Of a DNA stretch of 64,000 bases, positions 19,776-46,944 are shown in pieces. Every line of letters starts with the position of its first letter. The stretch's first letter is position 1. Location: assembly GCF_000317615.1 (NCBI RefSeq), contig NC_019780.1, positions 2,687,840-2,751,839 on the forward strand. Reading direction: 5' to 3'. Origin of the DNA: Dactylococcopsis salina PCC 8305. GTDB taxonomy: Bacteria; Cyanobacteriota; Cyanobacteriia; Cyanobacteriales; Rubidibacteraceae. The position numbers were made by a program, and so were the translations under genes. The notes beneath the pieces are model-generated. The model searched no databases. It saw only the letters and a list, made by a program, of their open reading frames with translations, and was not told the origin of the DNA.

Positions 19776-22055
19776 CTAACCATCAGATTGGTTAAACTCT
19801 ATTATTTCCCCCTTAAACACATCAGCTAAATCTTTGGCGGCTTTCTTTAAAGTTTTCTCGTCTGTTTCGGTTTCCTCATTCTGATTCGTTTCTGGAACAT
19901 CTGAAACATCTACAGTTGAATCTGTCGCCGTTTCCTCATTCTGATTCGTTTCTGAAACGTCTGGAGTCGAGATTGATCTCGTTTCAGTAACTTCTGGCTC
20001 TTTTTTAACCTCTTCTACAACAGGAGAGGGTTTTCTATTTTCTTGGGGAGGAGGTGGGAGAGGATTATCCGTTTTTTTTTCAGGGGTTGATACGGGAGAC
20101 GCTGCGGATTGAAATTTTTGCTCTCCTTTGACTTCCAATTTAACGGTAATGTCTCGTTTCAGAATTGCAGTTAAGGCTTGTTCTAAGTCTTTTTGACGTT
20201 TCTTCGCAAAGGGGAAAAGGTGTTGGTTTCTCACTCCTACTACGGCAATATTCCCCTCTATAGCTAATAAAGAACAGTGATCCTTAACTAAGGGTTTCGT
20301 GGGAGGAGGTAATCTCTCCAACATCTGCGTCCAAATTTGAACAACATTTGCTGTGTCTGGGGTTTCTGAAGGTGCGGTTGTGGTTTCCGATTCTGATTTT
20401 ACTGCCGTCGTTTTGGGAACTTCCGATGGTGGCGATGGTTGTTCTGGTTTCGCTGGGGGTTTTGGTTTGGGTTCATCTTTTGATGCTGTTTGAGGAAGAG
20501 AAACGGTTTTTACAAGGGGTGAGGTTTCTGTTGATGGCTGATTAACCGCTAATAATCCCAATAAGGTGACTTCTAGCCATAGGCGAGGTTGAGTGGTTTG
20601 TTTAACTTGTGCTTCGCTTTTTTGTAGGTGTTTTTGTCCTGCTAAAATTTCCCTAACTTCCCAGTCTTGAGCTAATTTACAGATTTGTTCCCAAGTGGAT
20701 GCGGTGAGGGCGACTAATTCGGAACGTTGAGGGGCGGTTTTCGCGATGAGTAAGTCTCGATACAATCCCGCTAGGCTTTCTAAAACAATAATTGGTTCTC
20801 GTCCTCGATCGAGCAGTTGACGACATAAAGTTACAATTTGCTCCCCATTTTCCTGTTTAATGGCTTGTAACAGGGCGATTAAATCCTGTTCTGGAATCGC
20901 ACCGACTAAATCCCAAACTCGATCGAGGCTAATTTCACCAGATAATAAACTCAGTTGATCTAAAAGACTTTGAGCATCTCTCAACCCCCCATGAGACACT
21001 TGTGCAATGACAGTTAGAGCTTCTTCTGTGATTTCAATTTGTTCTTTTTGTGCAATGTATCGCAAATGAGCAATCATCGCCGAGAGAGGGATGCGTTGGA
21101 AATCAAACCGTTGACACCGAGAGATAATGGTGGGAATCACTCGTTGCGGATCAGTGGTAGCGAGAACAAAAACGACTCTTGGCGGCGGTTCTTCTAAGGT
21201 TTTGAGGAGAGCATTAAACGCCGCCGTACTGAGCATATGGCAATTATGAACTAAAAGTCCATTCGCCACAAAATTATGATTCTGTTCCACTTCTAAATCA
21301 TAAACCGATTCTTTACCAACGCGGTGGACAGATTCTACCTTCTCCAAATTTGTACTCCATTGAGGGAATTGATATTCCACATCCACATTCACAGGGGATA
21401 GTATCTTGATTCCAGCTTTGAGGTTTTTTGCTTTGATCCATCCTTGATCAGTCCGAATTAGATGATTTTCTGTACAGCGAAGTTCACGGTGGGTCGTTTT
21501 GATCTTGACGGTGGGTTTTACTCCCTGATTGAGCCATCGTAATACTTTTTTCTCTTCCCATCTTTGAGTAGTTTCGTTATAGCTGAGAACTTTTTTCCCT
21601 TCCAAGTCGGGATTATCTATTCTCATTACTCCTGCCGAAGTCTGGATTAAGGAATCACCAGTTAAACACTCGTCAATCACATATAATTTATAACGACACT
21701 TCACGGGAGCAAAACTCGATCGATCGATAATCTCGCGAATATTATCAACACCCGTATTACTCGCCGCGTCGATTTCAACAATATCCAAAGCAGAACCATT
21801 AACGATCGAGCGACAGACTTCGCACTGATTACAAGGTTGCGCCGTTGGTTGCTTGCTATTAATACAATTCAGTGATTTCGCTAAAATTCGTGCTGAGGAG
21901 GTTTTACCCGTTCCGCGCGGACCACTAAACAAATAAGCAGGAGCAATCCGTTGACGCTCGATCGCATTACTAAGCGTGTCCCCGATCGCACTTTGTCCCA
22001 CCAGATCAGCAAAAGTCTGCGGACGATATTTCTGATGGAGCGGTTCATAAGGCAT
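19776..22055 (-). CDS. dnaX: DNA polymerase III subunits gamma/tau, interrupted by a mini-intein
   Basis: Clamp-loader ATPase. Walker A GPRGTGKT and a zinc module of four Cys (C-x10-C-x2-C-x2-C) precede the Walker B line VIDE|CHMLS, which the intein splits exactly between E and C. The normal AAA+ line AAFNALLKTLEEPPP follows. A Pro/Glu/Thr-rich linker (about nt 19830-20540) leads to a tau-type C-terminus. The start is set at ATG 22055 (MPYEPLHQKYRPQ) because that is where family similarity begins; a 14-codon upstream extension would run into the terminator of psb30. The precursor is 759 aa including the 142-aa intein. Without splicing the ATPase site would be non-functional. Confidence 0.95.
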   Translation of the reverse strand: MPYEPLHQKYRPQTFADLVGQSAIGDTLSNAIERQRIAPAYLFSGPRGTGKTSSARILAKSLNCINSKQPTAQPCNQCEVCRSIVNGSALDIVEIDAASNTGVDNIREIIDRSSFAPVKCRYKLYVIDECLTGDSLIQTSAGVMRIDNPDLEGKKVLSYNETTQRWEEKKVLRWLNQGVKPTVKIKTTHRELRCTENHLIRTDQGWIKAKNLKAGIKILSPVNVDVEYQFPQWSTNLEKVESVHRVGKESVYDLEVEQNHNFVANGLLVHNCHMLSTAAFNALLKTLEEPPPRVVFVLATTDPQRVIPTIISRCQRFDFQRIPLSAMIAHLRYIAQKEQIEITEEALTVIAQVSHGGLRDAQSLLDQLSLLSGEISLDRVWDLVGAIPEQDLIALLQAIKQENGEQIVTLCRQLLDRGREPIIVLESLAGLYRDLLIAKTAPQRSELVALTASTWEQICKLAQDWEVREILAGQKHLQKSEAQVKQTTQPRLWLEVTLLGLLAVNQPSTETSPLVKTVSLPQTASKDEPKPKPPAKPEQPSPPSEVPKTTAVKSESETTTAPSETPDTANVVQIWTQMLERLPPPTKPLVKDHCSLLAIEGNIAVVGVRNQHLFPFAKKRQKDLEQALTAILKRDITVKLEVKGEQKFQSAASPVSTPEKKTDNPLPPPPQENRKPSPVVEEVKKEPEVTETRSISTPDVSETNQNEETATDSTVDVSDVPETNQNEETETDEKTLKKAAKDLADVFKGEIIEFNQSDG
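21243..21668 (-). other. Mini-intein (142 aa) within DnaX
   Basis: It begins with Cys (CLTGDSLIQT, block A), has a TENHLIRT-type block B, a block F-like stretch (VYDLEVEQNHNFVANGLLVHN) and ends HN followed by Cys of the extein (CHM). At 142 aa it lacks the LAGLIDADG homing-endonuclease blocks. The site is the conserved DEAD/DECH Walker B box. Synechocystis DnaX carries an intein with a very similar N-terminus, by recall of the family. It should splice autocatalytically from the sequence. Confidence 0.95.
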
Positions 22056-22091
22056 AACAGTTCCCACCACTGACAAAAATGCAGACAAAAT

Positions 22092-22119
22092 CAGCAAGGC
22101 AGCTTAAACCACCTTGCTG
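22092..22119 (-). terminator. Probable terminator after psb30
   Basis: An 8-bp perfect stem CAGCAAGG / CCTTGCTG with a 12-nt loop lies between psb30 (stop at 22152) and the dnaX start (22055). A T-rich stretch follows on the minus strand, which fits psb30 transcription ending before dnaX. Confidence 0.6.
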
Positions 22120-23717: not shown

Positions 23718-24176
23718 ATGGTTTTCCGTTTATGCCTAGCATATAGTCTCAGTTTTTCGACTGCTATTAATCAACTGGGAAAAGCAAAAAAATTAGCTTA
23801 TGCTTTTACAGAACTCCGTTGTACGTTTGCTGGACGCTCCATCGTTCCAGATATCGCTGTATTTGAGTGGCAAAGAATCCCGTTAGATGAAAATGGTCAA
23901 ATTGTTGATCGATTTGAAATCGCTCCAGATTGGATTGTTGAAATTCTCTCTCCTAAACAATCGACAAATCGGGTAATTCGCAAAATTGTCTTTTGTCTTA
24001 AAAATGGTACAAAATTAGGTTATCTCATTGACGCTGACGATCAATCAATAACAGTCTTTCAGCCGGATCGACTCCCTGAAGTAAAAGAGAAACAAGATGT
24101 TTTACCCGTATTAGACGCTTTGCAGGATTGGCAAATTACTGTAGAAGACGTATTTAACTATCTAAGTTTTACCTAA
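23718..24176 (+). pseudogene. Uma2 family nuclease-like gene, N-terminally truncated
   Basis: From about residue 16 the protein follows the Uma2 (DUF820, PD-(D/E)XK-like) pattern: INQLGKAKKLAYAF, GRSIVPDIAVFEW, PDWIVEILSP, LGYLIDADDQSI. The usual first 40-50 residues (start of the fold, with the EEF/YE-x-x-x-GE segment) are absent, and the 15 residues before the match look unrelated. The upstream DNA is a palindromic repeat region, so the gene has probably lost its 5' end. Confidence 0.65.
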
Positions 24177-24237
24177 GAACTAGGAATAGTCTCTATAGCG
24201 GTACGCAACAGACTAATCAAGAGTCTGTTAAAATAAA

Positions 24238-24254
24238 ACGATAATGATTATCAT
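24238..24254. promoter_or_regulatory. Zur box A
   Basis: ACGATAATGATTATCAT matches 16 of 17 positions of the perfect palindromes elsewhere in this window. It ends 12 bp before the start of the COG0523-like gene, where it would block transcription when zinc is sufficient. Confidence 0.8.
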
Positions 24255-24266
24255 TGTAGATTTTTT

Positions 24267-25025
24267 ATGAGTTCTCCTTCTCTAATTGCAGTAGCAGGAC
24301 CCTCTGGCAGTGGGAAAACCACTTGGATTAGCCAGTATTTAAAACAACCCGCTACTCCCACCTATTACCTTTGTCCAGGCTTAGGGAATGCTTCAGTTGA
24401 TCTTGCTAGTATCGATTATCGCTTTCCTTGGATACAAACGATTCCAGACACAGAAGCGCAAACTATTCTCAGCAGACTCTCGGAAGAAACAGTGGTTTAT
24501 GTGGAATTAGGGTTTTATTTGGATTTAGCCTCCCCTGTTCTCACTTCCTTTCCTTGTCATCGGGTGGCGGTTGTTCCTCCAGAAACCGAATCATCACAAT
24601 GGCACAACTTTGCCGATGAAATCATTACTGGCAATTCCGTTCAATCCTCACGATACGGTGACTCGCCTCAAATTTGGTCTAGCCCCTTAACGGGACAAGT
24701 ATTTGATCCGCCCAGCTTAGAAACAATTTGGATGGAAATCATCGGGGGCGCTTATGGTCAAGTGCAACGGGCGAAAGGTCTTTTTGAACTTCCTGATGGA
24801 ACGCTGATCCAGATGGATTTTGTCGATGCGCTTCCAGGTAGCGAGTATCGAGAATTAAATGTTCCTCGGTGGTTAGAAGGACGACCGAATCGTTTTAGCG
24901 GGATCGAAGTGGTGGGCTGGAATTTGGAAGAAAGCACCATTAAACAGATTTTACTGGAGAGTTGCTTATCAGATCATGCGCTGAGTCAGTACCAGAGTTA
25001 TTATCAGGAGACGATCGCGTTATGA
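24267..25025 (+). CDS. Degenerate COG0523/CobW-like P-loop protein
   Basis: This 252-aa protein has a P-loop (GPSGSGKTTW) at residues 10-18 and a CobW_C-like C-terminal domain (QRAKGLFELPDGTLIQMD, EVVGWNLEE). It lacks the family's CxCC metal motif and has no clear NKxD GTP-specificity motif, and is shorter than typical COG0523 proteins (compare the full-length one at 40049). It is first in an operon with two phosphoesterase-like genes (4-bp overlap with the next) behind a Zur box. A role in zinc trafficking under limitation is inferred; whether it still hydrolyses GTP is doubtful. Confidence 0.75.
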   Translation: MSSPSLIAVAGPSGSGKTTWISQYLKQPATPTYYLCPGLGNASVDLASIDYRFPWIQTIPDTEAQTILSRLSEETVVYVELGFYLDLASPVLTSFPCHRVAVVPPETESSQWHNFADEIITGNSVQSSRYGDSPQIWSSPLTGQVFDPPSLETIWMEIIGGAYGQVQRAKGLFELPDGTLIQMDFVDALPGSEYRELNVPRWLEGRPNRFSGIEVVGWNLEESTIKQILLESCLSDHALSQYQSYYQETIAL

Positions 25026-25831
25026 AATTAGCTGTTATGTCCTGTATTCACGGTAATTATGAAGCCTTAACTGCGGTTTTATCCGATATTGAAGCCCAAA
25101 AAGCCGATCGCGTTTACTGTTTAGGAGATTTAGTCGGTTATGGTCCTTATCCTAACGAAGTAGTTGAGTTAATTCGGGATTTAGAGATTCCCACCTGTCA
25201 AGGCTGTTGGGATGAAGATGTGGTGGAAGGGTTAGACGCTTGTGAGTGTAGTTATCCTTCGCAAATCGCAGAAAAACGGGGAAAAGTTGCCCATGAATGG
25301 ACCAATCGGGTTTTGAAGTCAGATGTGCGGGACTATTTAGCCAATTTACCGATGATTCTGAAAGAAGACAATCTCTGTTTTGTTCACGGTAGCCCCAACA
25401 GCCAACATGAATATCTCTTACCCGATACAGCAGGATTAATTGCACTGGAACGAGTTTTATCCACAGGGGTAGATACCTTGTTTTGTGGACATACCCACAT
25501 TCCTTATGTTCGGGAGTTAGACAATATGAAGTTATCGGTGCAAGTGCAACAACCCGAAAAAATGAGCAACAACACGCTGACCACGCCGATGAAACGAATT
25601 ATCAATGCTGGGTCAGTAGGAGAACCCCGTCACGGAAAACCTGATGCGACGTATGTTCTGTATGATACTGAAACTGAAGAAGTGACGTTGCGGGAAGTTC
25701 CTTATAATTACACCGCAACCTGTTTAGCCATTTTAGAACAAGGACTGCCCCCGATTTTTGCTTGGCGGTTAGCGCGAGGTCTGGAGTTTGCGGAAAAAGC
25801 AGATGATCCGACTCATGTTTGTCAAAAGTGA
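25022..25831 (+). CDS. Metallophosphoesterase-like protein with altered metal ligands
   Basis: The 269-aa start at 25022 is supported by AGGAG 10 nt upstream and the ATGA overlap with the previous gene. The calcineurin-like scaffold is clear: GDLVGYGPYPNEV, FVHGSP, FCGHTH, NAGSVGEPRHG. However the first motif reads SCIHGN where D-x-H normally gives SDIHGN, and the GNH(D/E) motif reads GCWDED, so two usual ligands are Cys or Trp. There are extra Cys in DACEC. Placed in a Zur operon, it may bind a different metal or use Cys ligands. The substrate is unknown. Confidence 0.78.
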   Translation: MKLAVMSCIHGNYEALTAVLSDIEAQKADRVYCLGDLVGYGPYPNEVVELIRDLEIPTCQGCWDEDVVEGLDACECSYPSQIAEKRGKVAHEWTNRVLKSDVRDYLANLPMILKEDNLCFVHGSPNSQHEYLLPDTAGLIALERVLSTGVDTLFCGHTHIPYVRELDNMKLSVQVQQPEKMSNNTLTTPMKRIINAGSVGEPRHGKPDATYVLYDTETEEVTLREVPYNYTATCLAILEQGLPPIFAWRLARGLEFAEKADDPTHVCQK

Positions 25832-25844
25832 GGAAGCTGGAACA

Positions 25845-26558
25845 ATGACACAGTGGGCGATTTTAAGCGGAATTGAAGGGAATTTACAGGCTTATGAGGC
25901 GGTTCTTGCTGATATTAAGGGTCAAGAAATTCCAGTTACAGCGATCTACATTCTAGGAGATAGCATTGGGTTACAGGGCGATAATGAAGCAGTGGTGCAA
26001 CGGATTCAGTTTCCTTACGCCGATGAAGTGAAGCCGCAAGTGTGTACAGGGTGGTGGGAAGAACAATGTTTTAACTTATATGCCCTGAGTGGATTTGGAG
26101 AAGCCCCAGAATTGCGCGATCGTTATGGGACTGATGCGATTCTCAAGTTATGGGAATCTGTTTCCAGAGAAACCGTACAATGGTTACGCAGTCTGGACTT
26201 TGGCTTTCACGAAGAAGACTGTTTGCTGATTCATGGCAGTACCGTAAGTTACGATGATGAACTAACTCCCGAAACACCAGCGATTCAAATCTGCGATCGC
26301 GTTCTCAGAGCAGAAGCAGAAACCTTATTCTGTGCGCGATCGGGGTTAACCTTTACCTACTCTGTGGAAAGGGCAAGTCTTGATTCTAGCACCCGAACCT
26401 TAGAAAAAACACAACAAACGTCACAAGAAACCCTAGCATCCTGCCGAGTGATTGGTGTGGGTAATGTGGGACAAACGCCCCAAAGAGCAACCTATACTTT
26501 ATATCAACCCTTGACTAAACAAGTAACTTTTCAAACCGTTGACTATGACTCCCACTAA
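25845..26558 (+). CDS. Catalytically degenerate metallophosphoesterase paralogue
   Basis: The 237-aa start at 25845 follows GAGG and lies 13 bp after the preceding stop. It aligns along the length of its neighbour: AILSGIEGNLQAYEAVL (for AVMSCIHGNYEALTAVL), LGDSIGLQGDNEAV, CTGWWEEQCF, LIHGS, LFCARSG (for LFCGHTH), VIGVGNVGQTPQRATY. Nearly all metal-binding residues are replaced, so it is probably a non-catalytic partner or regulator of the upstream protein. A 20-bp stretch of its 3' end recurs at 27681-27700. Confidence 0.7.
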   Translation: MTQWAILSGIEGNLQAYEAVLADIKGQEIPVTAIYILGDSIGLQGDNEAVVQRIQFPYADEVKPQVCTGWWEEQCFNLYALSGFGEAPELRDRYGTDAILKLWESVSRETVQWLRSLDFGFHEEDCLLIHGSTVSYDDELTPETPAIQICDRVLRAEAETLFCARSGLTFTYSVERASLDSSTRTLEKTQQTSQETLASCRVIGVGNVGQTPQRATYTLYQPLTKQVTFQTVDYDSH

Positions 26559-26598
26559 ACGGAATCACATCGGGAGGAGGGTCTAGGGTTCTACACTC

Positions 26599-26826
26599 TT
26601 ATAGATTCTCGATAAAATCCTCAGCCTTTACTTGTGCTTGCTTGAGAATCCCACTTAATGTACCAACTTTTAATTCGCTATGTAGGGGAACAACACATCC
26701 CACTTTACCCTCTTCAGTATTTTTCTTCATCACAACATGACTGCCTGTTTGTCGAACCTGCTTGAATCCTAAGCGTTCCAGTACCTTGATTGCCTTCTTG
26801 CTAGAGATTCGTGGTAACTTAGAGCC
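26599..26826 (-). pseudogene. hicA: hicA toxin gene lacking a start codon
   Basis: The minus-strand frame reads SKLPRISSKKAIKVLERLGFK ... GSHVVMKK ... VVPLHSELKVGTLSGILKQA, a full HicA-type dsRNA-binding toxin of about 75 residues with the catalytic GSH. Upstream in frame are GGC, then stop codons TAA and TAG; there is no ATG, GTG or TTG before the conserved SKLPRI. The 3' end of hicB runs into it in another frame. A small deletion at the hicB-hicA junction would explain both. Confidence 0.7.
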
Positions 26827-27680: not shown

Positions 27681-27770
27681 CCGTTGACTATGACACCCAC
27701 TTCTCTTAAAACAAAGGCAACCCCTTGTGGTTGGAGTAATTCCTCGATCGCGTCAGCAATTTGAGCCGTT
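27681..27770 (-). pseudogene. Fragment of a second folE, beside a repeat of the phosphoesterase 3' end
   Basis: On the minus strand [18 protein letters not shown] matches residues 144-161 of the complete FolE at 29155 ([18 protein letters not shown]). At 27681-27700 the plus strand repeats 19 of 20 bases of 26536-26555, the last codons of the second phosphoesterase. Both are remnants marking past rearrangement. Confidence 0.7.
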
Positions 27771-28166
27771 TGGGGCGATCGGAGTCTTCAAAGGGGGTAA
27801 GGGAGGAATACGGGCTAAAATTCCTTTTTGTAAAACTTCTGGGCGGTCTTGACGTTTAATGAGTCCATCATTACTAGCAAAGTATTGTTCGGCAAATCTC
27901 AATATAGAAGAGGGACTGGTTATCGGTGGCAAATCACCAAACATCAAAGTAGTTTTATTGGGTGCAGCAAAAGCCACAGCACAGGGACGATTACAAGCAC
28001 TCAGACAACTAACTTCTTGAATGATAAATTCATCTTTGTATTGCCAGTTTGCTCGTAATTCTTTTAAGCGATCGGATAAATGTTTTCCGCCTCTTTGTCC
28101 TAAATAATCCTTTTGTTGAAGAGAGAAAGCACAGGAGCTACAGACAAATATAGTGTGTTTGCTCAT
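27753..28166 (-). CDS. DUF1636 family predicted metal-binding protein
   Basis: The 137-aa protein carries FVCSSCAF near the start and SCLSACNRPCAVAF in the middle, a thioredoxin-like ferredoxin type Cys pattern seen in DUF1636. These proteins often accompany CobW-type genes. Family similarity ends at LQKGILARIPP; the last 13 residues (from LPPLK) are encoded by a G/C repeat and the folE fragment, so the natural stop has been displaced. It lies last in a minus-strand run folE-hisI-28194-this gene. Confidence 0.75.
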   Translation of the reverse strand: MSKHTIFVCSSCAFSLQQKDYLGQRGGKHLSDRLKELRANWQYKDEFIIQEVSCLSACNRPCAVAFAAPNKTTLMFGDLPPITSPSSILRFAEQYFASNDGLIKRQDRPEVLQKGILARIPPLPPLKTPIAPNGSNC

Positions 28167-29916: not shown

Positions 29917-31613
29917 CTAAATTGGCTGGCTCATTTTTGCCACCAGTTCAGCGACAGAAAGAGTTCCTAACTCCCCTTCTTTGCGAGTGCGGACACTTAA
30001 CATTCCACTTTCCACCTCACGCTTACCGATGACTGCTACCACTGGAATCTTTTCCATTTCAGCAGTCCGAATTTGTTTCCCAAGCCGATCGCCGCTGGTA
30101 TCAACTTCAATGCGAAATCCTTGCTGTCTCAACTCCTGAGCAACCTGATCAGCATAATCTCGTTGGGCATCACTAACGGGGAGTAATCGCACTTGTGTTG
30201 GTGATAACCATAAGGGGAAATCTCCAGCATAGTTTTCCACTAAAACCCCAAAAAATCTCTCTAGAGAGCCAAAAATGGCGCGATGAATCATAATGGGACG
30301 TTGGCGCGATCCATCATCTGCCATGTAGCTAAGATTAAACCGTTCTGGTAGGTTAAAATCAACTTGAATGGTGGAACATTGCCAAAGCCGACCAATGGCA
30401 TCTTTAATCTTTAAGTCAATTTTCGGACCATAAAAAGCCCCGCCCCCTTCGTCTAAAACATAATCCCAACCTTTGGTTTCTAACGCCTGAACAAGAGAAT
30501 TGGTGGCTAACTCCCACCCTTGATCTGTTCCCACTGATTTACTGGGTCGAGTGGAAAGGTTAATTTCATATTGAGTAAAGCCAAAGGCTGATAAAATTTT
30601 CTCTGTGAGATTTAGCACGCCTAAAATTTCATCAGTCACTTGTTGAGGTAAGCAGAAAATGTGAGCATCATCTTGTGTAAAGCCACGAACCCGCATTAAA
30701 CCATGTAAGACACCTGAGCGCTCATAGCGATAAACGGTTCCCAACTCTGCCCATCGTATCGGCAATTCTCGATAAGAACGTTGCTGAGTTTGATAGGTCA
30801 GCACATGGAAGGGACAGTTCATGGGTTTAATTTGATATTGCTTCTCTTCAATTTCCATCGGCTTGAACATATTGTCCTGATAGAAATCAGCGTGTCCAGA
30901 TGTTTTCCATAACCCCAAACTAGCCAGATGAGGCGTGTAAAGTAACTCATATCCTCCATCAAGATGAGCTTTACGCCAATAATCTTCAATTGCTGTTCCA
31001 TAAATCCGTTGCAACTGAGGATTATTTTCGTTACCGCGCCAATAAGCGCTTTCTCTACGCTTTCTAAGGCAAAAGCATTGGGATTAATTTCTCCAGTAAA
31101 GGTCACATGAGGTCCTTCACATAAATCCCACCAGTAATCGTGATTTTTGGGTTTAGCTTGAGGAGGAACTGACTTAAAGAGAGAGGGTTCTCCTTCTGTT
31201 ACAGGAACAGAATCAGGAAAACCGATATAGTACCGTGTGACGGGTTCGTCTGTGGGAATACTTTCTAGAATTTCTAATTTGTAGGGTTCTCCCAGTTCTT
31301 CAATTTCAGTCCGCATCTCTTCCCGAGAAACTTCTTCACGAACAATGGGTAAATTGGCTCCAACGATCCGTCGCATTTCTGCTTCAATTTGACTCAGGTC
31401 TTCTGGCGTGAACGGTTGAGTTCGATCGAAGTCGTAATAGAATCCTGTTTCTGTCCAGGGTCCAATAGTTACTTTGGTTTCTGGGAACAGATTTTGCACT
31501 GCCATTGCCATAATATGGGCGCAAGTATGACGACGAATGCGTAACAGGGTTTGCGGATCGCTTTGAGAAATTGGCTCTTGGACGGATGACTGTTGGTGAA
31601 TTTGACTGACCAT
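29917..31613 (-). pseudogene. thrS2: Second threonyl-tRNA synthetase (ThrS2), frameshifted
   Basis: Two overlapping frames together make a ThrRS of about 565 aa lacking the N-terminal TGS domain. The first part has the editing-domain lines RRHTCAHIMAMAV and LCEGPHV; the second has the catalytic core with zinc ligands in KPMNCPFH, DDAHIFC and MIHRAIFGS, then an anticodon-binding domain ending at 29917. The frame breaks at 31046-31049, where GCGC replaces an expected GC: deleting one GC restores VEKAYWRGNENNPQLQRIYG. Zur-controlled ThrS2 copies are known in cyanobacteria. It may be a pseudogene or a recent or sequencing error. Confidence 0.85.
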
Positions 31614-38993: not shown

Positions 38994-40052
38994 TTACCCA
39001 AAGCCACGTCCGCTTTGGGTTTGCGACCAAAGAAAAACTTCTCCCGCTTCGCTACCAGCAACCAGATGATGACCATGCGGATGCCAACTCAGAGTAGAAA
39101 ATCCATCTAAGGTCGGGGAAAACGATTGTAGTAGCTTCTGACCGCGATGCCAAAAGTGAAGCCAACCATCTTTCCCCACTGAGGCGAGTCTTAAACTTTG
39201 GGGATGAAACGCCATAGCAGCCACTTGTTCTTCATGACTCACCGCTTCACTACTCCAGCCAATGCGTTGATTTTTGCTCCGTTCCCAAACTACAATATCA
39301 TTGCCACTACTTGCAGCTAACAACGGCGCACCGGCACGATTGGGAAAAGCAGACCAAGCCAGTTGACGGACTTTACCCGTAAAGCCCTGCATCAGCCAAG
39401 GATCAGGATTTCCCCATTCCGTAACCAAAAGCGTCTGATCGAGGTTTCCACAAGCCAAATAGCGACTGTCAGGAGACCACTTGACCGCAATACTCGCAGA
39501 AGAAACTTCAACCAATTCGGGGTCATCATCCCAGTCTTGAGTATTCCAAACTTGTGTCACCTGATAGCCTCCCACCGCCAGCCATAACCCATCATTGCGC
39601 CAATCTAAATCTAGCACCGATGAGGTTTCAAGATTCAGAGTCGTGACAATTTCTTGAGTTATTGCATCCCAAACTTGGCTATACTTTCCCAAGCTGAAAG
39701 CAAGCTGATGATTCACTGGATTCCATGCTAAACAATCAATCCACGTAGAAGGATAATCTAGGGTCGCGATGACTTGAGGAGGATCAGAAGACACCTCCCA
39801 GATTTTCACCTGTCCTGATTGTCCCGCACTGGCTAGAAATTGACCATCACTAGAGAAGGCGAGACAATCAACTGTATAATCATTGGCGGGTTGTAGGAAA
39901 ACAGGGACAAAGGAGTTTAAGCTGAAAAGGGCAACTTCTCCAGAAGCAGCACTGACCGCGAAAAAGTCTCCTGTTGGCGACCACGCGATCGCGCTGATAT
40001 AATCTGATAAAAAACTCTCTCCTCTGGGCTCAAATGCGATACGACTTCTCAT
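38994..40052 (-). CDS. WD40 repeat protein coupled to CobW
   Basis: The 352-aa protein has about seven WD-type blades (for example AIAWSPTGDFFAVSAASGEVALF, CLAFSSDGQFLASAGQSGQVKIW, AMAFHPQSLRLASVGKDGWLHFW), predicting a single propeller with no other domain and no signal peptide. Its ATG overlaps the cobW stop by 4 bp, so the two are translationally coupled under Zur box E. A scaffold partnering the GTPase is inferred. Confidence 0.85.
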   Translation of the reverse strand: MRSRIAFEPRGESFLSDYISAIAWSPTGDFFAVSAASGEVALFSLNSFVPVFLQPANDYTVDCLAFSSDGQFLASAGQSGQVKIWEVSSDPPQVIATLDYPSTWIDCLAWNPVNHQLAFSLGKYSQVWDAITQEIVTTLNLETSSVLDLDWRNDGLWLAVGGYQVTQVWNTQDWDDDPELVEVSSASIAVKWSPDSRYLACGNLDQTLLVTEWGNPDPWLMQGFTGKVRQLAWSAFPNRAGAPLLAASSGNDIVVWERSKNQRIGWSSEAVSHEEQVAAMAFHPQSLRLASVGKDGWLHFWHRGQKLLQSFSPTLDGFSTLSWHPHGHHLVAGSEAGEVFLWSQTQSGRGFG

Positions 40053-41020
40053 TTTTTAATTAAACAGTTTCGGAATCCAGCTTTGAGTGCAGCTTCATCT
40101 AAGTTACGTCCGATGAAAACCAGTTCATTTTTGCGGGTTTCGTTGGGAAGCCAAGGGCGATCTGCCTTGCCATCAAACAACATATGCACCCCTTGAAACA
40201 CAATGCGATTGTCTTCCCCTTTAATATTTAAGATGCCCTTCATCCGAAAAATATCGGGTCCTTGGTTGCGGAGAAGTTCACCGACCCACTGGTCTAGTTT
40301 ATCACCATCGAGCATTCCCGTCTCATCAATTACCACTGATTTGACCGTCTCATCATGTTCGTGCGCGTCTTCCCCCAAGAAATCGGGATCGACTTCTAAA
40401 GCGCGATCGAGGTTAAATGCTTCCACCCCTAAAATATCATCCATTGCCACTTGTGCATCCTGCGTGCGATAAATCTTTGCCATGGCATTCATTCCTCGGA
40501 TGCGCCCTTCTAAATCTTCCAATTCCGTCAGACTCACTAAATCCGTTTTATTCAGTAAAATGACATCAGCAAAGGCAATTTGTTCTTGGGCTTCTTCCGC
40601 ATCCCAATGCTGATGGATATGTTTAGCATCAATCAGTGTAATCACTGCATCTAAGTTAGTTTCTGCGCGGACATCTTCATCCATAAAAAATGTTTGAATC
40701 ACTGGGGCTGGATCAGCAATCCCTGTGGTTTCAATAACCAGATGATCAAATTTATCCCGCCGTTTCATCAAATTGCCAATCATCCGAATCAGATCGCCAC
40801 GCACGGTACAGCAAATACAGCCATTGTTCATCTCAAAGATTTCTTCATCGGTATCAACCACCAACTGGTTATCAATGCCAACTTCTCCAAATTCATTAAC
40901 AACGACGGCAACTTTTTTGCCATGTTCATGGGTGAGAATCCGATTCAGTAGAGTCGTTTTGCCAGCACCGAGATAACCCGTTAAAACGGTGACAGGAACA
41001 GAGTTTTGAGTAGTAACCAT
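40049..41020 (-). CDS. CobW/COG0523 GTPase (zinc metallochaperone type)
   Basis: The 323-aa protein has a P-loop [10 protein letters not shown] at residues 15-24, the CxCC metal motif GCICC (Cys68, 70, 71), a Walker B/switch line [13 protein letters not shown], the NKTD guanine motif and a CobW_C domain ([23 protein letters not shown]). A short acidic/His stretch (GEDAHEHDE) lies between domains. Family members such as ZNG1/ZigA deliver zinc to client enzymes. Zur box E is 20 bp upstream, and the zinc enzymes FolE, HisI and ThrS2 in the island are plausible clients. Confidence 0.93.
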
Positions 41021-44758: not shown

Positions 44759-45355
44759 ATGACCATGCAAAGTATCTCTAATCAATCTCAACTCTTTACT
44801 TTAGAGGAGTTTCTGGCTTATGACGACGGTAGTGATCAACGGTATGAACTGGTCGATGGAGAATTAATAGAAATGCCGACAGAGTCCCCTGAAAACTGTA
44901 AACTTGCCAAATTCTTAATGTTGGAACTGGCAAAATTTATCTCTATTGCATTGATTAATCTCAAAGATTTAGAAGTCACTGTTACTGGCAAACGTGCGAC
45001 GGTTCGCTTACCTGATCTGGCAGTTTTAACTGAAGAAGCATATCAAGCCTTAATGGGCAATTCAAGAAACATAATTACTGAAGATATGCCGCCGCCAGCT
45101 TTAGTTGTGGAAATTGTTTCCCCAGGACAAGAAAGTCGCGATCGCGATTATCGTTATAAACATACGGAATACGCAGCACGAGGAATTACCGAATACTGGA
45201 TCATCGATCGCGAGACTCAAAAAGTAACCGTCTGTCTTTGGGTTAACGGCAAATATGAAGATACAGTTTACACAGGGGACACTCCTCTGAAATCAACGGT
45301 GATTCCAGAGTTTAACCTTAGTGCGAGTCAGATTTTACGCTTTGCCGAAAATTAA
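44759..45355 (+). CDS. Uma2 family protein
   Basis: The 198-aa full-length Uma2 protein has LFTLEEFLAYDDGSDQRYELVDGELIEMP, VRLPDLAVLTEEA, LVVEIVSP, YRYKHTEYAARGITEYWIIDRE, a PD-(D/E)XK-like core (D of LPDL, E of VEIVSP). AGGAAG precedes the ATG by 10 nt. These genes are abundant in cyanobacteria and have no established function. It is convergent with the porin gene, with stops overlapping by 4 bp. Confidence 0.88.
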   Translation: MTMQSISNQSQLFTLEEFLAYDDGSDQRYELVDGELIEMPTESPENCKLAKFLMLELAKFISIALINLKDLEVTVTGKRATVRLPDLAVLTEEAYQALMGNSRNIITEDMPPPALVVEIVSPGQESRDRDYRYKHTEYAARGITEYWIIDRETQKVTVCLWVNGKYEDTVYTGDTPLKSTVIPEFNLSASQILRFAEN

Positions 45356-46944
45356 AAAGTAAAAATGGTACGGACTAATCCCACAGTAATCGTGTCATTC
45401 TGTCCGTTATTTTCAGGATTAAAAATCACTAAAACCCCAGGCTCAATACTCAAATTAGCATTCACTTGATACCGATAAGACCCTTCTAAGTGAAACGCAC
45501 TTTCATCGCCAGTGGGGCCGCCATCATTTGCGGTTACTTTGGGCGGTTGACCAATAATAATCCCTGCGCGACTACCCCGATTATCCACATTCGGGAAGGC
45601 AAAGGTTAACGCCCAGTTGAAAACCGTTGCCTCATCCCCAGCGTTGACAGGCGTTCCATTCCAACCACTACCACCTGCTTCAGCTTGCGCTTGGGTTAAA
45701 CCTGCCCACCCCGCAAGGATAAAGTTACGGCTCAAACGAGAGTTTGCTTGCAAGCCAAAATGATTGGCTGAGGTGGCAATCTTCCCGCTAAAAGGGGCGT
45801 TGGCGACACGGCTTCCTGTTCCCCCTGAAACAAAGGGTTCTCCCCCTGGATAATAGGCGCGGACATAAGTTAACCCTAAACTGAGGTTCTCGCTGGGGTA
45901 AAATGCAAGTTGTCCCAAGGCTGCATAAGAACCGTTAAATAAGCCTTGATTCACATCCGCAGGATTGCGACCGAGATACCCCGCAGAAAGGGTGAGAGCG
46001 TCGCTGAGTTCATAGTTGAAGGTTACGCCAGCCCCCGCAGCCCCCTGAATATAAATGGGGTTCATGCGCCCAAAGTTGGAAATTGAACCTTTAACTGCAT
46101 TGGCGAAAAAACGGTTAAAGTTGTCGATGTGAGCGTTAAAACGTCCCCTGCTGGCATCGATCGCGTAGGAAAAGCGTTCTCCCAGTGCTGTTTTATAAAA
46201 TAGTTTACCGAGGACAACATTGTTATTCGTATCGCGATCGAAGGCAAGACGAGTCATATTTGTTCCCGTTGTGCTTGGTGCATTAAAACGGGTGACATCT
46301 GTAGCATCAAGACGCACTTTGAGAAGATCGCGCCCAGTAAAACTGCTATCAAAATTGAGACGAACGCGATTGTTAAAAACAACTCCTTCATCAATGTCAG
46401 GGGCGCTACCAGCATCAACAAAAACAGGAACAGCTTGGTTGCTGCCAATAGCACTATTCAAGGAAAATAGTACTGTTCCTCTGAGTTTGGCTGTGGTGGA
46501 AAACTGATTGTCTTCTAAAAAGGTGGTGCGTGCTTCCAAGTTATCCACTCGCGTGCTGAGGGTGGTCAATTCGGCTTCAAAGTCTCTGGTGAGCCGTTGT
46601 AGGGTTGCTAAATCTCCTTCCGTTACCTCTGTTGGGTTATTGCTGATCAAATCTTCAATCTGTCGCAAACATTGGTTTAAAGCTGCTGCAAACTCGTAAC
46701 GGGTGAGAGCGCGATCGCCATAAAAACGTCCATCAGGAGAACCCGCAAGACAACCGTAGCGTTCAATTAAATTCCGTAGTGCTTCAAATGCCCAGTCATC
46801 AGGAGACACATCTCGCAGTTCAAAAACATTGTTGATTTGCGAAGAATCATCTCTCAAAGATTGTCCTTGGGCAACGTTCCCCCCATTGAACAAAATCGTC
46901 ATCATTCCAATAACTGCAAGCCCTTGCTTGCGTAAATCTTGCAT
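45352..46944 (-). CDS. SLH-domain porin, Zur-controlled
   Basis: The 530-aa protein has a signal peptide (MQDLRKQGLAVIGMMTILFNGGNVAQGQS), one S-layer-homology domain (DVSPDDWAFEALRNLIERYGCLAGSPDGRFYGDRALTRYEFAAALNQCL), a coiled coil (about residues 105-145, LTTLSTRVDNLEARTTFLEDNQF), then an OprB-like beta-barrel ending in aromatic TIFTF, an outer-membrane insertion signal. The SLH domain binds peptidoglycan-linked polymer. Zur box F 18 bp upstream suggests it admits zinc or zinc complexes across the outer membrane when zinc is scarce. Confidence 0.9.
   Translation of the reverse strand: MQDLRKQGLAVIGMMTILFNGGNVAQGQSLRDDSSQINNVFELRDVSPDDWAFEALRNLIERYGCLAGSPDGRFYGDRALTRYEFAAALNQCLRQIEDLISNNPTEVTEGDLATLQRLTRDFEAELTTLSTRVDNLEARTTFLEDNQFSTTAKLRGTVLFSLNSAIGSNQAVPVFVDAGSAPDIDEGVVFNNRVRLNFDSSFTGRDLLKVRLDATDVTRFNAPSTTGTNMTRLAFDRDTNNNVVLGKLFYKTALGERFSYAIDASRGRFNAHIDNFNRFFANAVKGSISNFGRMNPIYIQGAAGAGVTFNYELSDALTLSAGYLGRNPADVNQGLFNGSYAALGQLAFYPSENLSLGLTYVRAYYPGGEPFVSGGTGSRVANAPFSGKIATSANHFGLQANSRLSRNFILAGWAGLTQAQAEAGGSGWNGTPVNAGDEATVFNWALTFAFPNVDNRGSRAGIIIGQPPKVTANDGGPTGDESAFHLEGSYRYQVNANLSIEPGVLVIFNPENNGQNDTITVGLVRTIFTF

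Follow-up and report, generated by a model that had tools for sequence, protein, structure and literature searches.

A conserved three-gene cassette in a cyanobacterial zinc-regulon setting encodes a COG0523-like NTPase, a cysteine-substituted metallophosphoesterase and its ligand-poor paralogue

The metallophosphoesterase (MPE) superfamily, the COG0523-like NTPases and the Zur regulon are known kinds of system. Canonical MPEs carry the ligand set D-x-H, GD, GN, H and GHxH, and one superfamily member, Car1, is a thioredoxin-coupled binuclear MPE that works by attack of Cys74 and resolution by Cys76. G3E NTPases can operate with separate metal-binding partners, as in the pairs HypB/HypA and UreG/UreE. 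In cyanobacteria, hemB2, folE2, thrS2, COG0523 and znuABC are listed as Zur-regulon genes in a review (PMC6103462). Here we analysed a 64,000-nt stretch of the Dactylococcopsis salina PCC 8305 genome (contig NC_019780.1, positions 2,687,840 to 2,751,839; hereafter the window), in which three consecutive genes, denoted C, A and B, encode a COG0523-like NTPase, an MPE-fold protein and a paralogue of the latter. The three genes form a conserved module that is retained even in genomes of 1.6 Mb, and its components suggest a role in handling metals or thiols. As far as the accessible literature goes, both the three-gene module and an MPE site that combines these Cys substitutions with a CxC motif are new.

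The C-A-B cassette is a nearly all-or-none three-gene set in many cyanobacteria. Among 388 genomes of the class, A was found in 143, B in 149 (at a cut-off of E<=1e-30, which dropped 14 of 163 matches as weak) and C in 151; of the 162 genomes with at least one of the genes, 135 had all three, and A was never found alone. Linkage was also seen at the level of individual loci. In the best 80 of 395 relatives found with the peptide patterns QGCWDED or LFCGHTH (loci L102-L181, hereafter the pattern-found loci), C was directly upstream of A in every case, and B was present in 68 and next in the order in 49, staying in the cluster despite rearrangement in some loci (L165, L169, L178). C was also present in 38 of 40 further loci of 5.8-19.7 kb; the remaining two are a locus with C elsewhere in the genome (L049, genome G185) and a cut locus (L071). 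Some loci from different sets represent the same organism (e.g., L070 and L120). The small-genome family f25, probably the picocyanobacteria to judge from size alone, has the cassette genes in at least 28 of its genomes (1.6-2.9 Mb). A pattern scan of viral contigs matched 37 stretches, with no relative among them.

Protein A is a member of the calcineurin-like metallophosphoesterase superfamily without the canonical site. It matched PF12850 (E=1.2e-20; 74.5 bits against a cut-off of 27) as well as PF00149, and its motifs read MSCIHGN, GDLVGYGP, GCWDED, VHGSP and GHTH. Position 8 is Asp and position 62 is Asn in all 24 non-family relatives (20 loci from the same phylum but another class, and 4 plasmid proteins), and both are Cys in A; the rest of the ligand set, H10, D36, H122, H157 and H159, is retained and invariant among A orthologues. 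A preliminary description made from the letters of the window had noted the SCIHGN and GCWDED substitutions next to preserved GDLVGYGP and GHTH and proposed a rebuilt metal site, in agreement with C8 and C62 occupying ligand positions. Its further proposal that A is an enzyme or sensor re-tuned to another metal is conjectural. It had also described the two altered core ligands as Cys or Trp. Two ligands are indeed replaced, but both by Cys (D8 to C8 and N62 to C62), and Trp63 lies outside the ligand set. Trp63 as a lost ligand, at the neighbouring catalytic-His position, was rejected because the 24 relatives carry Thr (19), Tyr (2), His (2) or Cys (1) there.

The substitutions are a family trait. 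C8, C62, C74 and C76 were identical in 81 of 81 distinct A orthologues, a set composed of whole-protein search matches and stretches chosen from them and thus free of pattern selection. When the pattern-found loci were added, these four residues and C155, C234 and C267 were invariant in 137 of 137 orthologues, with the invariance at C62, W63 and C155 in the pattern-found loci being partly due to selection. Overall, 83 of the 269 positions of A were invariant across this set, including all 8 His, all 3 Trp and 7 of the 10 Cys; C59 and C119 vary freely, and 2 of the 137 sequences lack Cys at position 33. The C-terminal tail carries the invariant H265 and C267. Thus, a family-wide alignment finds Cys conserved at both ligand positions, which excludes the possibility, raised in the preliminary description, that the substitutions are unique to one genome and reflect decay. 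The coordinates of the genes and key sites are given in Table 1.

Table 1. Genes and sites of the C-A-B cassette in the window
Feature	Position	Strand	Description
Gene C	24267-25025	+	252-aa P-loop protein, COG0523-like, with a CobW_C-like C-terminal half and without CxCC
Gene A	25022-25831	+	269 aa, MPE fold, with C8, C62, C74 and C76
Gene B	ATG 25845, stop 26558	+	237-aa MPE paralogue, most ligands lost
Zur-box-like palindrome CGATAATGATTATCA	24239-24253	+	ends 13 nt upstream of the gene C ATG
Cys8 codon of A	25043-25045	+	first Asp ligand position (D-x-H motif)
Cys62 and Trp63 codons of A	25205-25210	+	Cys62 at the Asn-ligand position
Cys74-Glu-Cys76 (CxC) codons of A	25241-25249	+	aligned with C74/C76 of arsenic-operon MPEs

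The six best non-cyanobacterial plasmid matches of A were MPEs of Paraclostridium, Adhaeribacter and Pontibacter (35-36% identity), and the three of them that we examined all lie within arsenic operons. Two were aligned pairwise to A at 36% identity; the alignment was ungapped over residues 1-114 for the Adhaeribacter protein and over residues 1-80 for the Paraclostridium protein, so that C74/C76 of A are the same pair as in these MPEs. A CxC motif was present in 6 of the 8 arsenic-operon MPEs examined, at residues 74/76 or 75/77 of the respective protein, and absent from the other 2 and from 4 MPEs for which no arsenic setting was seen (one of them unannotated). According to the available part of the corresponding report, the Paraclostridium MPE is ~40% identical to the Rufibacter tibetensis As(V) reductase Car1 and shares with it Cys74 and Cys76, both of which are essential for the reductase activity of Car1 (PMC12124457). 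The comparison of A with Car1 was made through the arsenic-operon proteins L205 and L206. L205 and L206 belong to the same fold family as A, have the CxC in the same frame and share H10, D36, H122, H157 and H159; unlike A, they keep D8 and N62, and they have Tyr at the position of Trp63. A further differs from Car1-type MPEs by its invariant tail with H265 and C267, by its zinc rather than arsenic setting and by its two nearly constant partners.

Phylogenetic trees did not establish orthology of A and Car1, and A is accordingly not filed as an arsenate reductase (p-values of the approximately unbiased test, p-AU, 0.016-0.286). When A was constrained to group with all arsenic rows, p-AU was 0.042 with the B rows and 0.286 without them; that is, the grouping with the arsenic clade was weakly rejected in the presence of the fast-evolving B rows and not rejected in their absence. 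The grouping with the CxC-bearing arsenic rows alone was rejected both times (p-AU 0.016 with B and 0.029 without B). These constraint groups were chosen after the first tree had been seen. The CxC could be an ancestral feature that other lineages have lost, or it could have been regained. Separately, an arsenic operon of Mucilaginibacter (L212:3001-4493) contains two tandem MPE genes, one with and one without CxC, an arrangement that parallels A-B.

The AlphaFold2 (AF2) model of A (mean predicted local distance difference test, pLDDT, 76.7) matched 3rqz, 2gju, 1nnw and SapH (3qfm) with Z scores of 25.4-26.5 over residues 1-255 or more. The best match was 3rqz (Z=26.5), and SapH, an asymmetric Ap4A hydrolase, scored 25.6; the matches listed in this search all share one fold, and absences from it carry no weight. 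In the Sphaerobacter protein 3rqz, positions 8 and 62 are occupied by Asp and Asn, respectively. The Pyrococcus proteins 1nnw and 2gju are themselves non-canonical (ANIAGN, RGKYDQ) and have no Cys at the sites where A does. SapH (3qfm/3qfn) likewise shares the calcineurin-like phosphoesterase fold with A.

Protein B is a paralogue of A (28% identity, E=4e-24; profile-profile probability 99.9%), and the A and B rows are united on one side of a tree branch with support of 99/97. Its motifs read LSGIEGN, LGDSIGL, GWWEEQ, IHGS and CARSG, and Trp71 of B aligns with Trp63 of A. The equivalents of H10, H157 and H159 of A are lost, leaving the ligand set incomplete: in the numbering of the window B, the first motif has G9 and E11, and the GHxH pair is replaced by R165 and G167. 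The preliminary description had seen in SGIEGN, GWWEEQ and CARSG the loss of nearly all ligands. Most are indeed gone, but two ligand-equivalent positions are retained, D39 and H130, each conserved in 24 of 24 B rows. Its notion of a linked partner resembling a pseudo-enzyme holds for B, which is a paralogue with most ligands lost that is co-inherited with A. A Pfam scan of the window B returned no meaningful family (two matches, E 0.12 and 0.17), and across 53 B members the matches were scattered and weak (1 of 53 to Metallophos, E 0.024), so that no family was assigned to B.

Protein C resembles the COG0523/G3E proteins (YjiA, CobW) in having a P-loop and probably a CobW_C-like half. The Walker A motif G11xxGxGKT18 was invariant in 46 C sequences, all of which matched CobW_C at E<=0.1 (best 5e-7); the window C scored 13.9 bits, below the cut-off of 22. 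The closest sequence match of C in the PDB was YjiA of COG0523 (E=1.9e-4), which was also the best fold match of the C model (pLDDT 92.5; E=3.2e-8), but with a TM-score of 0.34. Profile comparison with neighbouring COG0523 proteins covered the C-terminal half only (E=1.9e-5, probability 78%). Unlike the COG0523/G3E proteins, C is 252 aa long and lacks CxCC; of the 151 genomes encoding C, 135 also have both A and B. No Cys is invariant among the 46 C sequences; the listed COG0523 neighbours carry C[IV]CC.

The cassette lies in a zinc-regulon setting. The preliminary description had placed a phosphoesterase pair in a Zur operon; the zinc setting and the linked partner B stand, whereas the operon begins one gene earlier, with C, and thus comprises three genes. 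The stop codon of C and the start codon of A overlap as ATGA, and A and B are separated by 13 nt. With at most one mismatch, the Zur-box pattern TGATAATNATTATCA was found at 6 sites in the window against 0.01 expected, and genome-wide (3.78 Mb, one contig) at 10 sites, 6 of them inside the window, compared to 4 for a reversed-pattern control. The zinc-stress setting claimed at the outset is thus borne out by the match ahead of C and by zinc-regulon neighbours. A scan of positions 24100-26800 returned two promoter-like matches, one across the start of B and one past B, and one terminator-like match within A; the counts of both kinds were below the shuffle mean, so that the scan tells nothing firm about the operon. 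The surrounding island includes genes for a dimer-type dihydroorotase, HisI, FolE, a DUF1636 protein and ThrS (the latter in two open reading frames, ORFs), as well as ZnuB-like, ABC-ATPase, ZnuA and CobW/COG0523 genes and an OprB porin. A second FolE copy is encoded elsewhere in the genome (70% identity), as expected of a zinc-starvation paralogue. Island and box are of the same kind as in the cyanobacterial Zur regulon.

The same setting recurs in other genomes. A HemB, FolE, ThrS, HisI, Znu-like, COG0523 or DUF1636 gene was present in the available flank of 57 of the 80 pattern-found loci. Neighbour names were taken from our own clusters, and for eight clusters a single representative was scanned against NCBIfam: those for FolE, HemB, ThrS and HisI scored above the cut-off, and those for COG0523, ZnuA-like and ZnuB-like proteins matched related models below it. 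Plasmids provide clear examples, with the cassette adjoining folE and hemB in Picosynechococcus PCC 7117, lying near a zinc ABC transporter, hemB, thrS and hisI in Trichormus variabilis ATCC 29413, and adjoining folE near thrS in Dolichospermum. Across the 80 pattern-found loci (1.04 Mb) we counted 88 Zur-box matches, distributed over 52 loci, against none in the shuffles (first-order Markov samples, as in all box shuffles, here one per locus). Of the 83 C genes outside f25, the window included, 42 had a box with no more than two mismatches in the 400 nt preceding the gene. The best box in loci outside f25 was equalled in 139 of 460 and in 332 of 1180 shuffles, which is because about half of these loci lack a good box. 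In f25, all 15 loci examined had a box upstream of C, but with 2-4 mismatches, and 23 of 300 shuffles were as good; the case for Zur is therefore weaker in this family.

Adjacency, co-inheritance, the Zur box, the residues and the fold are observed features; a complex of the three products is a proposal. We favour, at a probability of roughly 0.4, the explanation that C-A-B encodes a Zur-linked complex for handling zinc or thiols, in which C would be the NTPase, A would carry the metal or the redox function and B would be a non-catalytic component. The three products would act together at low zinc, either binding and handing over scarce zinc or protecting a zinc/thiol site. A would serve as the metal- or thiol-bearing subunit, C would drive NTP-dependent switching in the manner of the G3E NTPases that work with separate metal-binding partners, and B could pair with A in a dimer, as its scaffold or regulatory half. 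A may have taken over the metal-binding cysteines that are missing from C. If the Cys pair reaches the metal site as in Car1, four Cys, four His and one Asp would be gathered around one pocket of A. A more specific version, which we regard as doubtful, envisions a split metallochaperone, in which a CxCC-less COG0523-like NTPase, an MPE-fold zinc site rich in His and with four Cys (or gated by redox) and a pseudo-MPE scaffold would allocate zinc during starvation, from large genomes down to the small genomes of f25.

Several observations weigh against a zinc- or thiol-handling complex. No zinc-regulon gene was present in the available flank of 23 of the 80 pattern-found loci, several of which are short contigs, and 41 of the 83 C genes outside f25 had no box at the above threshold, some of them sitting behind other operon genes. 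Two parts of A are modelled at pLDDT <50, namely the Cys loop (residues 64-82) and the tail (255-269, with H265 and C267); given the loop confidence, AF2 provides no usable geometry of the Cys site. Furthermore, the CxC has a redox use in Car1, and a purely metal-binding role is unnecessary. Published expression results are also pertinent. In the accessible part of the study of a Synechococcus 7002 zur mutant, hemB-II, folE-II, G0131 (GTPase-like) and G0132 (FAD protein) were raised, and G0129, annotated as a phosphoesterase and part of the pAQ7 cluster, and G0130 were not induced (PMC4628125). Judging from synteny with PCC 7117, G0131 would correspond to C and G0129/G0130 to B/A. In the same accessible text, G0130 is described as having no conserved domain or homologue (PMC4628125), a poor fit to A. 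Since G0129 and G0130 were not raised, A and B may be transcribed from a separate promoter or expressed at a basal level. In the marine strain WH8102, only synw0970-0973 were raised in both kinds of comparison, as far as the available portion of that report goes (PMC9337993). No ZnuA-cluster gene was found near the cassette in 15 f25 loci, so that synw0970-0973 probably represent another cluster.

G0132 is a probable homologue of an FAD/NAD(P)-type protein whose gene we found in 38 of the 80 pattern-found loci (e.g., L102:3584-4855) and also at L182:5757-7022, usually transcribed divergently from C, with the Zur-box promoter between the two. The cluster representative of this protein had no NCBIfam match, and the name comes from the PCC 7117 annotation.

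The main rival explanation, which we consider unlikely, is that A works as a Car1-like, thioredoxin-linked reductase, in which Cys74 would attack an oxyanion or an oxidised thiol at the metal site and Cys76 would resolve the product, with arsenate or the oxidised cysteines of zinc-starved proteins as candidate substrates. The ungapped alignment of the CxC with arsenic-operon MPEs, the essential role of the same pair in Car1 noted in the accessible text (PMC12124457), the retained H10, D36, H122, H157 and H159, and the arsenic operons around the three examined of the six nearest plasmid matches would all fit a reductase. It is harder to reconcile with the replacement by Cys of the Asp and Asn that all 24 relatives keep at positions 8 and 62, with the trees, which do not establish a place for A inside the arsenic clade, and with the absence of any ars gene from three annotated cyanobacterial regions, the only ones annotated for it; nor does it give a reason for C and B. 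Less likely again is that A is a phosphoesterase with a different metal pair, for instance a nucleotide or Ap4A-type hydrolase needed in zinc starvation, with B as its regulator. The fold scores to 3rqz and SapH and the five invariant retained ligands agree with a hydrolase, but the first Asp and the Asn ligands are gone in all 137 orthologues, the invariant CxC and H265/C267 are left unexplained, and zinc-sparing paralogues usually lose, rather than gain, Cys ligands.

We give still less credence to the idea that A senses the metal or redox state and controls C, with either an iron-sulfur cluster or a zinc switched by redox bound at C8, C62, C74 and C76: four invariant Cys, of which two occupy ligand positions and two lie in the loop next to them, would suit such a centre, but the loop is modelled at low confidence and the CxC also occurs in relatives that lack C8 and C62. 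Finally, that A and B are decayed or mis-annotated phosphoesterases without function might be suggested by the loss of most ligands in B, and has a practically negligible probability; we rejected it in view of the invariance in 137 of 137 sequences, the co-inheritance of the three genes across the 388 genomes and their presence in the small genomes of f25.

Zinc supply matters to cyanobacterial carbon fixation and phosphorus use, and the question at stake is how scarce zinc is allocated among client proteins. Should the cysteines of A prove to be functional, the adoption of the MPE fold for thiol chemistry would extend beyond arsenate reduction. In the literature found on cyanobacterial Zur regulons, neither A-B nor C-A-B is named as a unit; this literature, seen in part, mostly excludes subscription papers, and a description in print is possible. 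Likewise, a search combining Zur, cyanobacterial metallophosphoesterase and zinc returned no paper, with subscription literature mostly outside its reach.

Further Zur-box matches in the window lie ahead of folE (29869, perfect), upstream of the thrS ORFs (31756, one mismatch), where the znuA ORF begins (36482, perfect), between genes for the COG0523 protein and an ABC permease (41042, perfect) and 19 nt upstream of the OprB porin ORF 45352-46944 (-) (46964, perfect). This porin is possibly a zinc-responsive outer-membrane porin. The DUF1636 protein (27753-28166, -) is encoded beside hisI and folE, is also present in the Trichormus zinc island, and shows a weak likeness to 2Fe-2S thioredoxin-like domains (E 0.094). 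The COG0523 gene and a WD40-repeat gene follow one another at 38994-41020 (-) with a 4-nt overlap, and several further loci again have a COG0523 gene beside a cluster-c10 gene. ThrS (29917-31613, -) is split into two overlapping ORFs in different frames, 30819-31613 covering model positions 1-101 and 29917-31014 covering positions 205-562; this Zur-linked copy looks frame-shifted or mis-sequenced. In the DnaX ORF (19776-22097, -), two matched stretches leave approximately residues 145-282 unmatched, an insert that may be an intein, to judge from its CLTGDSLI ... VVHNCH motif.

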